Positions 59,525-62,615 of a stretch of 64,000 bases of DNA are shown piece by piece. Below the pieces are notes generated by a model. It saw only the letters and a list, made by a program, of their open reading frames with translations, made no database searches and was not told where the DNA came from. Position 1 is the first letter of the stretch. Every line of letters begins with the position of its first letter. The position numbers and the translations under genes were made by a program. Origin of the DNA: Bifidobacterium breve. Lineage in GTDB: Bacteria > Actinomycetota > Actinomycetes > Nanopelagicales > Nanopelagicaceae. Location: positions 1-64,000 of the forward strand of contig CAMDBB010000001.1 in the NCBI GenBank assembly GCA_945889195.1, written 5' to 3'.

Positions 59525-60709
59525 CTAACCTAACTTATGTAGTGCTTCTGAGAGTAACTGATGAGCAAGCGTGTCTTTGGTGGTCTCTGCCACTTCTATG
59601 ACTTTTCCGTCGCGGGTAATGATCTGACCATGGGTTGTCTCGCTATTGAAGATATCTCCTCCAGAAACATCGTTGAGATAGAGAATATCCGCGCTCTTGC
59701 GGACCATCTTCTCTTTCGCACCTTCTGTATCGAGCTTAGTCTCTGCGGCGAAGGCGATGATTACCTGGGACGTCTTCGCAGCGGCGATGGATGCCAGCAA
59801 ATCAGGGTTCTCGATCAATTCAATAGCGGTGAAATCCTTCTTCCTAATCTTTCCATCAGCGTTATGCAAAGGACGTGCATCTGCAACAGCTGCCGACATT
59901 ACCAATACGTTCGTTGCAGCAAAGTTTTCGTTGAGCGCTTGGTGCATCTGCGCCGCAGTTTCAACCTTGATTGTTTCAACGCCTGGGATATCTGAGAGAT
60001 GAACATTGGCCGAGATGAGGGTTACATCAGCTCCTCGCGACAGAGCTGCGCGAGCTACTGCATATCCTTGTTTGCCTGAGGAACGGTTTCCAATAAATCG
60101 CACTGGATCGATCGGTTCACGGGTTCCACCTGCGGTAATCAGAATCTTGCGACCCTTAAAATCTTCGCTCTCTCCAATTACTGACTTAAAGGCGCTGATG
60201 ATATTGGGAGTGCTCGGGAATCTTCCTTGTCCGATGTCACCTGATGTGAGCGCGCCTATTTCTGGATCGAGAACGGTATAACCGCGTGCCCGTAGCGTTG
60301 CAACGTTCTCCAGCGTTGCCGGGTTGCTCCACATCTGAGGGTGCATTGCTGGAACTATCAGAGTCGGAACGCTTGCTGCGAGGACGACGTTGGTAAGGAG
60401 ATCATCTGCTCTACCCGCTGCGATGCGCGCCATCAAATCTGCTGTTGCAGGCGCGATGATGAGAAAGTCGGCCTTCTTGGCTAAGGATACGTGGCGAACT
60501 TCCTCAACTGATTGAAAAACTTCAGTTGTTACACGCCGCCCTGAGAGCGCCTCCCATGTTGCAGCGCCCACAAAATTTAAACTTGAAGGGGTTGGAACGA
60601 CAGTTACTTTGAAATCAAGATCCAGTAACCGCCGCAGAAGGTCACAGGATTTATAGGCTGCAATTCCCCCACCGACTCCGAGAACAATCTCGCGTCCCAA
60701 GCCTTGCAT
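59525..60709 (-). CDS. coaBC: Bifunctional phosphopantothenoylcysteine decarboxylase/synthetase
   Basis: CoaBC makes 4'-phosphopantetheine in two steps of coenzyme A synthesis. The 394-residue protein has the N-terminal CoaC flavoprotein domain ([59 protein letters not shown]) and the C-terminal CoaB domain ([20 protein letters not shown] at ~185-204, [26 protein letters not shown]). The motif AMHxxMW replaces AMNxxMW, as also in Mycobacterium. A -10-like TAAATT lies five bases upstream. It sits between rpoZ and metK. Confidence 0.95.
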
Positions 60710-60730: not shown

Positions 60731-60991
60731 TTACGCGGTTGGTTCGAGATTTTCGATGGTGAGCAGGCCCTCGTTGATTTCGCGTAGCGCGATAGAGAGC
60801 GGCTTCTCGTGAACATGTGTATCCACTAGTGGACCTACGTATTCAAGGAGACCTTCGCCAAGCTGTGAGTAATAAGCATTGATCTGACGAGCGCGCTTTG
60901 CAGCATAGAGAACGAGGCTGTACTTAGATCCAGCCTTATCGAGAAGTTCATCGATTGGTGGATTTGTGATTCCGTCCATATGTACGCTCAT
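60731..60991 (-). CDS. rpoZ: DNA-directed RNA polymerase omega subunit
   Basis: The omega subunit stabilises RNA polymerase. The 86-residue protein has [20 protein letters not shown] (~8-27), [16 protein letters not shown] with the conserved KRARQI motif, and a C-terminal [17 protein letters not shown]. It follows the mIHF-gmk gene with GGAG seven bases before the ATG. Between the two genes, a short stem TGGGT/ACCCA (about 61012-61025) may be a weak attenuator. Order gmk-rpoZ-coaBC-metK matches Mycobacterium. Confidence 0.96.
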
Positions 60992-61028
60992 CTAAAGACT
61001 CCATCAAATAATTGGGTCTAAACCCAGG

Positions 61029-61904
61029 CTAATTAGCAGATGCCCATTCTATCAGGGTTGCAGCAACCTGCTCGACCTGCTGATTTATCAGAACTTTATC
61101 GAAGAATGGAGCCTGCGCCATCTCCTCCTGGGCTAACGCCAATCGCGCCGCTCTGCGTTCGGGGCTATCTGTGCCACGGCCTTCAAGGCGTGAGACCAAC
61201 TCTTCCCAAGTAGGAGGCTCTAAAAAGACGAGCAAGGCATCTGGAACCTTAGCTTTGACTTGCTTTGCACCAGAGATCTCAATTTCTAGAAGAACGCTCT
61301 TTCCAGAACGCAACGCATCCTCCACTGCCTTTCGCGGAGTACCGTAACGATTGCCGGCGAAGGCTGCCCACTCTAAGAATTCGTCCTCTTTAATGCAGCG
61401 ATCAAATTCTTCATCTGAAAGAAAATGATAATCAACGCCTTCGCGTTCATTAAAGCGCGGTGAACGGGTAGTTGCCGAAACAGATACGTGGAATGGAGAT
61501 GATCGGCGAAGTTCGTGAGCGACCGTGCTCTTTCCAACTCCCCCTGGACCTGAAAGTACAATCAGTTTTCCACGTGTGAGTGGAGATGGAGAAATAAATT
61601 CCTGCGCAAGAGCTTTTGCTTGTCGAGATCCCAGACCTTGTAATCGCCGCGTCAAAGAGATCTCTAACTTCTCTAGCAGCACCTTTGCTCGAATCTTCCC
61701 TACACCTGCTATCGATTCCACCAACTCCAGAACTCGCATCTTTGCAACTGCCTCATCGCTCTTAGCTAATTCAAGGACATCGGTGATAGATAGCTCGCCA
61801 CTTTTTACTCGAGATTTGATGCCTGCACGGACTAAGCGAGATTGCTTAGCCTTCGCCAGAGCTCGCGCCCGCTCTTCTGGAGTTAATTGAGGAGGTGCGC
61901 CCAT
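61029..61904 (-). CDS. gmk: Fusion of actinobacterial integration host factor (mIHF) and guanylate kinase
   Basis: One 291-residue ORF carries two units. Residues 1 to ~105 match mIHF (Rv1388), a DNA-bending nucleoid protein with a helix-two-turns-helix: EAVAKMRVLELVESIAGVGK (~51-70), then IRAKVLLEKLEISLTRRL and GLGSRQAKAL. Residues ~112-291 are guanylate kinase (GMP to GDP): KLIVLSGPGGVGKSTVAHEL (P-loop ~119-127), SVSATTRSPRFNEREGVDYH and GNRYGTPRKAVEDAL. In Mycobacterium these are adjacent separate genes. There is no stop, Shine-Dalgarno or ATG between the halves. The ATG at 61904 follows pyrF by nine bases. Confidence 0.92.
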   Translation of the reverse strand: MGAPPQLTPEERARALAKAKQSRLVRAGIKSRVKSGELSITDVLELAKSDEAVAKMRVLELVESIAGVGKIRAKVLLEKLEISLTRRLQGLGSRQAKALAQEFISPSPLTRGKLIVLSGPGGVGKSTVAHELRRSSPFHVSVSATTRSPRFNEREGVDYHFLSDEEFDRCIKEDEFLEWAAFAGNRYGTPRKAVEDALRSGKSVLLEIEISGAKQVKAKVPDALLVFLEPPTWEELVSRLEGRGTDSPERRAARLALAQEEMAQAPFFDKVLINQQVEQVAATLIEWASAN

Positions 61905-61913
61905 GAGGTAAAT

Positions 61914-62615
61914 CTAGTTGAGAATTTCATCTGCGATGGAACGTGCCTTAGCTGACATCTCATCCGCACCCTTGAGCCATGCCTGCGTAATCGGACGGCC
62001 AATGACCACTAGTGATGCGCCCGCTGCGATGGCATCTCGTGGCGTCATGGTTCGCTTCTGATCATCTGTGCCGACCTCAGATAGCGGTCTTACTCCCGGT
62101 GTGATGATTAAGGTTTCATCGCCCACGGCAGAGCGAATCGCCGAGATTTCAAGTGGGGAGCAGACGATCGCCTTCGCCCCAGAATCCACAGACATCTTCG
62201 CGAGTGCGACTGCGCTCTCAAGGGCTGCATTTGCAAAACCAATTTGAAAGAGATCCTCTTCAGATAGCGAAGTCAGAATTGTTACAGCGGTCACCTTTGA
62301 ATTCGGAAGCGCCTCAACAGCTGCCTTTACCATCGAAGCTCCACCTGAAGCATGAACGGTGAGAAAGGTAGGTGCTAAATCTGCAATAGCTCGCGCAGCG
62401 CCAGCAACAGTGTGTGGAATGTCGTGTAGTTTGAGATCCACAAAAATATCCGCATCAGTCTCGTTCTTAATGGCGCGAACACCCTGGTGGCCAAAGGTGA
62501 GAAAGAATTCAAGGCCCAATTTATAGACGCTTACCGAACTCTGAGTTGCGCTTACCCAACGCTTTGCAATCTCAAGATCGGGGGTATCAACGGCTAAAAC
62601 TATGGGAGCTTTCAT
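61914..62615 (-). CDS. pyrF: Orotidine 5'-phosphate decarboxylase
   Basis: PyrF makes UMP from OMP, the last step of de novo UMP synthesis. The 233-residue protein has IVLAVDTPDLEIAKRWV at the start, the catalytic DIFVDLKLHDIPHTVAGAAR (Asp-x-Lys-x-x-Asp, ~55-74), and C-terminal LIITPGVRPL and ASLVVIGRPITQAW (phosphate loop). It is the short bacterial type 1 form, not the longer mycobacterial type 2. The ATG overlaps the pyrD stop by four bases (ATGA). Confidence 0.95.
   Translation of the reverse strand: MKAPIVLAVDTPDLEIAKRWVSATQSSVSVYKLGLEFFLTFGHQGVRAIKNETDADIFVDLKLHDIPHTVAGAARAIADLAPTFLTVHASGGASMVKAAVEALPNSKVTAVTILTSLSEEDLFQIGFANAALESAVALAKMSVDSGAKAIVCSPLEISAIRSAVGDETLIITPGVRPLSEVGTDDQKRTMTPRDAIAAGASLVVIGRPITQAWLKGADEMSAKARSIADEILN

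Follow-up and report, generated by a model that had tools for sequence, protein, structure and literature searches.

The question raised by this locus is whether a nucleoid protein, mIHF, and an enzyme, guanylate kinase (Gmk), are really encoded by one gene, and if so, what such a joint protein would do. The initial annotation of the window, by which we mean the whole stretch of 64,000 nucleotides that was analysed, had placed both domains in one reading frame. This was borne out, with the addition that the gene lies on the minus strand: the ORF list and the translation give a single ORF of 291 aa, which begins with ATG and has no internal stop, and both domains score above the curated cut-offs. 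The first half matches NCBIfam NF041260 (actino_IHF) at residues 5–103, with 111.2 bits (cut-off 60) and over positions 3–101 of the 102 in the profile. The second half matches the equivalog model TIGR03263 (guanyl_kin) at residues 112–286, with 211.5 bits (cut-off 160.45) and over positions 1–176 of 180. Pfam places H2TH_5 at 33–103 and Guanylate_kin at 112–285, and the E. coli-type IHF/HU domain, PF00216 (Bac_DNA_binding), had no match in the ORF at E values up to 0.1. Profile searches of the assembly, 1.43 Mb in 19 contigs and 97.6% complete, gave one mIHF match and one gmk match, both of them this ORF. A second copy of either gene, which the initial annotation had proposed to look for, was not found anywhere in this assembly, and the single-copy state stands. 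The ORF is thus confirmed as a genuine mIHF-Gmk fusion. The same genome has one HU-type match (C1:220512-220778) and no Lsr2 match, and its set of nucleoid proteins is perhaps small.

The gene order mihF-gmk-rpoZ of Mycobacterium tuberculosis is also that of the window (Table 1), the difference being two genes there and one here. The initial annotation was right that mihF and gmk are separate neighbours in Mycobacterium, as they are so in both records seen from that genus (L209 and L257). Deletion of mihF in M. tuberculosis is described, in the excerpted text of PMC6155035, as polar on gmk and rpoZ, both of which had to be supplied. In the window, co-transcription at the locus is likely; a scan of the fusion-gene region for promoters and terminators gave matches not above chance. 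A hairpin, TGGGT-TTAG-ACCCA, lies between the fusion gene and rpoZ at 61013–61026 on the minus strand, and such matches are not above chance here.

Table 1. Features of the mIHF-Gmk locus and the evidence for each; positions are those of the window.
Feature	Position	Strand	Evidence
pyrF (OMP decarboxylase), upstream, 9 nt before the fusion gene	61914..62615	-	Pfam OMPdecase
mIHF-Gmk fusion gene, 291 aa	61029..61904	-	single ORF; NF041260 and TIGR03263 both above cut-off; sole genome match to each
Actinobacterial IHF domain, residues 1-104 (N-terminal helix and S13-like H2TH)	61593..61904	-	NF041260/Pfam and model
Interdomain linker, residues 105-111	61572..61592	-	low pLDDT; without start codon
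Guanylate kinase domain, residues 112-291 and stop codon	61029..61571	-	TIGR03263/Pfam and model
rpoZ (RNA polymerase omega), downstream, 37 nt after the fusion gene	60731..60991	-	Pfam RNA_pol_Rpb6, NCBIfam rpoZ
coaBC-like flavoprotein, next downstream of rpoZ	59525..60709	-	Pfam DFP and Flavoprotein

The two halves resemble their stand-alone counterparts closely. The mIHF half shares profile, fold and basic residues with mIHF (Rv1388 of M. tuberculosis) and sIHF (SCO1480 of Streptomyces), and its nearest solved structures by sequence are 6tob (mIHF) and 4itq (sIHF). Among 130 unfused reference loci, part of which had been fetched for high mIHF scores, there are 12 columns with K or R in at least 90% of the loci, and the window has K or R at every one of them. 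The known structures are of separate chains, 107–109 aa long, whereas the C-terminus in the window continues into Gmk, so that what is found is one ORF with Gmk and not a stand-alone protein of about 105 aa. NF041260 is typed by NCBI as an equivalog_domain, and the window mIHF is therefore a member domain and not a stand-alone mIHF. The Gmk half shares profile, P-loop, near-invariant residues and fold with bacterial Gmk (TIGR03263; 1s4q of M. tuberculosis), to which it adds an N-terminal nucleoid-protein domain. Its P-loop reads GPGGVGKST, and S141, S143, T145, R147, R150, E153, Y159, E178, R239, R243 and R254 are all present, each of them at 100% (rounded) in the 130 unfused loci. We take these residues and the P-loop to belong to the GMP/ATP site.

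The reading that we consider probable is that two adjacent genes were joined to encode one bifunctional protein, in which each domain keeps its own task, and that no new function came from the merger. The N-terminal domain would bind and bend DNA like mIHF and sIHF, the C-terminal domain would be the only GMP kinase of the cell, and a short flexible linker would let each work largely independently of the other. Such a fusion would have arisen by in-frame merger of adjacent mihF and gmk genes, whose junction already abuts or overlaps in several unfused relatives. The merger may have been tolerated because neither fold is disturbed when the C-terminus of mIHF is connected to the N-terminus of Gmk, and because streamlined genomes lose intergenic sequence.

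The fusion is not special to the window organism. At the DNA level we classified 248 genomes and records with both domains, 99 as fused and 149 as separate. At the level of loci, the window and 260 others (261 sources) had been examined, and all were assigned to one of the two states except two placeholders of 20 bases and one locus with gmk only. The set is not random, since loci from the family of the window (here f1) were drawn mainly by their likeness to the window, six of the seven loci from f9 (a family that mixes with Microbacteriaceae on the tree) were selected from full-length matches, and the named records came from a scan with fused proteins. The units counted were genome handles and record titles, so that one organism may count twice, as IMCC26103 apparently does (G535 and L222). 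With this in mind, the genus of the window (g1) is fused in 43/43, its own genome included, and the family f1 in 67/82, with ten fused genera and six separate ones (g241, g243, g244, g362, g364 and g366). The suggestion in the initial annotation that other actinobacterial families may have similar long Gmk proteins also held: Microbacteriaceae are fused in 22/22, namely 15/15 of the named records and 7/7 of f9, one of the latter (G529) being cut by the contig end, and in family f103 the fusion is found in 2/5, in genus g316 only. In a class-wide search, 18 of 20 f9 genomes had a stop-free full-length match among the matches listed; of the other two, G529 is the fused one that its contig end cuts, and G747 was not among the matches listed. 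Among seven records that name no family, six carry the fusion, of which five are closest to f1 loci and one, L234, to f9/Microbacterium loci. All other families in the DNA-level count have no fusion (0/130), and the same is true of 30 further genomes from 8 families that served as a control. Across the phylum, mIHF was matched in 354 and gmk in 378 of 396 genomes.

The fused Microbacteriaceae (Microbacterium, Curtobacterium, Leucobacter, Pseudoclavibacter and others) have the same domain order in one ORF as the window. They differ from it in forming a separate clade, in a more diverged IHF half, and in the distance between the matched domains, 36–48 nt as compared to 27–36 nt in the named acI-like loci. 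Almost throughout the fused groups, the near-invariant Gmk residues are retained, as are the lysine and the glycines of the P-loop; at P-loop position 121, S is replaced by G in most of f1 and by T in Microbacteriaceae. Frames of 278–306 aa with gmk in f19, a family of another class, also looked fused, but at the DNA level mIHF and gmk were in different frames in 6/6.

From this one protein, g1 appears to be the acI-A/Planktophila lineage and f1 Candidatus Nanopelagicaceae. Over the domains compared, the g1 genome G535 (locus L073) and the complete genome of the acI isolate IMCC26103 encode identical proteins; the excerpted text of PMC5301498 places IMCC26103 in tribe acI-A4. The 'Candidatus Planktophila' record L260, recorded under Candidatus Nanopelagicaceae, is fused, and its closest locus belongs to g1 (85%). 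A record labelled Bifidobacterium breve MAG MsH-30apr19-344 (L216) also has an acI-like mIHF-Gmk fusion, 70% identical to g1 loci; its species label looks wrong.

A sequencing error that hides a stop between the domains, which the initial annotation had named as the result that would overturn the fusion, is excluded because the junction is open in independent genomes. An error of sequencing or assembly is likewise ruled out by the 43/43 fused in g1, by the 96%-identical genome G911 and by the identical domains of IMCC26103 and G535. In two g1 genomes, G832 and G862, the protein search flagged a stop within the match, but in the DNA itself the fused ORF is open in each (L136 and L137). Two other g1 genomes, G869 and G890, are 76–77% complete and had no match at all.

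The distribution of the fusion on trees bears on its origin. A tree built from both domains together (98 rows, 275 columns) requires at least five changes between the fused and the separate state. Two short-domain loci were left out of it; thinning at 80% identity took the remaining 256 rows to 122, and removal of 24 from other classes left 98. The fusions of Microbacteriaceae form one clade (100/99), next to the unfused Micrococcaceae, and those of g316 in f103 form a second (100/99), with the unfused g330 next to it. Within f1 the earliest branches are four genera without the fusion, and the fused genera are found in a third clade (100/98) that also contains the unfused g362 and g243. For f1, a tree of rpoB from 27 genomes agrees with this: it needs at least three changes and rejects a single clade of all fused rows (AU p 0.0025). 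Thirty genomes had been queried for rpoB; G868, G893 and G817 gave none and G691 a partial one, which leaves g364 and g367 off the tree. Within f1, one gain with two splits ties with three gains, and g243 and g362 may thus have been split again or may never have been fused.

Several unfused junctions are close to a fusion. In three g243 genomes (L132, L133 and L134) the mIHF stop codon TAG is followed directly by an in-frame gmk ATG, a junction that is one substitution from a fusion, or else a fresh split. The genes overlap by ATGA in three further genomes, two from g243 and one from g362. Abutting and overlapping junctions in unfused f1 imply that a fusion is mutationally close in this neighbourhood.

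At least five changes of state could hint at some further benefit, against plain tolerance of the merger. We considered whether the fusion was selected, because tethering of Gmk to the nucleoid, or a tie between mIHF and GMP/GTP metabolism, is useful. Three separate fused lineages on the tree (f1, Microbacteriaceae and g316 of f103), all kept through long divergence, are in line with this, as is the pyrF junction of f1, which is only 9 nt away and remained unfused. The longest fused ORF in f1 is 344 aa from stop to stop, which is too short to include pyrF too. On the other hand, unfused genera are found within f1, two of them nested among fused ones, which suggests that tethering is dispensable, and a fusion by chance would be cheap, given that several relatives without it have the two genes directly adjoining or overlapping. 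Selection for the joint protein appears very doubtful to us. The strongest form of the idea is a nucleoid-bound GMP kinase, in which DNA binding by the mIHF half would position or tune Gmk and so couple the supply of guanine nucleotides to the state of the chromosome, and which would have been reached independently in freshwater acI, Microbacteriaceae and a third lineage; this we regard as about equally improbable.

Both activities probably persist in the fusion, and dN/dS is low in both halves. The median dN/dS of 14 close pairs from 74 fused f1 genomes and records was 0.037 for mIHF and 0.023 for Gmk, and between the window and its nearest relative the values were 0.042 and 0.036. The mIHF half diverges 1.5–2.06 times as fast as the Gmk half in the fused lineages. 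The same ratio is 0.91–1.37 in the unfused genera of f1, 2.05 in those of f103 (3 genomes), and 0.17–2.23, or 0.95 when pooled, in eight other unfused families (30 genomes, picked regardless of mIHF score). A strong relaxation of mIHF after fusion had been indicated by our first sample, with 0.05–0.75 in unfused as compared to 1.5–2.0 in fused lineages, and was overturned by the control range of 0.17–2.23; unfused f1 (about 1.1) and f103 (2.05) were exceptions already in that sample, which had been fetched partly for the best mIHF scores. The fused lineages are at the upper end of the mIHF/Gmk rate ratio, and no more.

The rates are of interest for another explanation, that the IHF half is no longer a nucleoid protein and persists as a remnant, or has become an accessory part of Gmk. 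The faster divergence of mIHF than of Gmk in fused lineages fits this, although the values reached in unfused families imply that a fast mIHF is not peculiar to fusions. Microbacteriaceae have mostly lost 4 of the 12 basic columns (K18, K34, K55 and K70 in the window), and in six f9 genomes the match to the mIHF family is weaker, with E values of about 1e-18 to 1e-20. Against a remnant stand the window itself, basic at 12/12 columns and with a dN/dS of about 0.04, and a structural model that superposes on DNA-bound sIHF at 0.8 Å. Moreover, g243 and g362, nested among fused genera, have a free mIHF, an argument that counts only if they were split again. A remnant is in our opinion rather improbable, and an IHF half that still works as mIHF does is what we would expect in the window. 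The ratio of 1.5–2.06 nevertheless leaves room for an altered function of mIHF, and most so in Microbacteriaceae with their lost columns. In 11 of 40 genomes mIHF was unmatched: G307 (f6), G450, G545, G578, G596, G638 and G654 (f103), G397, G421 and G464 (f78) and G505 (f106). Ten of these genomes are 93–100% complete and G464 is 70% complete, and mIHF seems to have been lost in some actinobacteria.

The AlphaFold2 model of the fusion has a mean pLDDT of 94.3 and a pTM of 0.69. The lows are residues 101–110, with a mean of 70 between flanking blocks of 97 and 96, and the last residue, 64. In a structure comparison that was a second look at Foldseek matches, residues 16–104 of the model superposed on DNA-bound sIHF (6bek) with a Z of 17.0 and an rmsd of 0.8 Å over 89 residues, and the model superposed on sIHF 4itq with Z 16.5 and rmsd 1.0 over 90 residues, and on M. 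tuberculosis Gmk (1s4q) with Z 25.7 and rmsd 2.1 over 180 residues. A pTM of 0.69 does not fix how the two domains are arranged relative to each other.

The low-scoring block between the domains is also where one product could become two, if the protein is cleaved or if free Gmk is initiated within the gene as well, so that the domains act apart. At pLDDT 70 this predicted linker could be sensitive to proteases. As for internal initiation, an in-frame ATG at the position of residue 104, near the start of unfused gmk and perhaps the old gmk start itself, is found in 20 of the 74 fused f1 genomes and records, and in 8/74 a linker ATG has a Shine-Dalgarno-like tetramer upstream. The window has no ATG, GTG or TTG codon at residues 95–118, a stretch that lacks a start codon in eight of the 74, the window included; its nearest in-frame candidates, GTG75 and TTG84, are both within the H2TH domain, and no linker ATG position is common to more than those 20/74. 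The absence of a motif inside the gene proves little, because 73 of the 74 fused genes have no Shine-Dalgarno-like motif at their own, mechanically assigned, start either, which gives the test little power there. Starts in these genomes may depend on coupling or on another signal. The window gene likewise has no Shine-Dalgarno-like tetramer in the preceding 61905–61925 on the minus strand. Two products are on balance unlikely, and we infer that a full-length, stable protein is made.

If this full-length protein is indeed the product, it would follow that Gmk is tethered to DNA or that mIHF is held at the levels of Gmk. According to the excerpted text of PMC6155035, mIHF of M. tuberculosis is an essential protein and belongs to the top ten by abundance. 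At such an abundance a 291-aa fusion per copy would be costly, which implies that the abundance must differ or that the fusion may be cleaved. The excerpts of PMC10028186, by contrast, describe growth of M. smegmatis as requiring just a small amount of mIHF, and a fusion made at the level of an enzyme could then suffice. The same excerpts only postulate why mIHF is essential in mycobacteria. A 1:1 fusion would thus imply either that mIHF is far scarcer, or that Gmk is far more abundant, or that the protein is cut.

The domain families, their adjacency and the domain-type NCBI model were already known, and the merger is ordinary in its mechanism unless tethering proves functional. We found no paper on an mIHF-Gmk fusion in the open-access literature that we searched; a text search found no mention of guanylate or gmk in PMC3724605 and PMC10028186, nor of guanylate kinase or gmk in PMC4255298. 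The importance of the fusion lies in the limits that it sets on models of mIHF. Unless the fusion is cleaved, mIHF in these bacteria would be tied 1:1 to Gmk in one chain, and would have to fill its role without a separately set level and without a free C-terminus.
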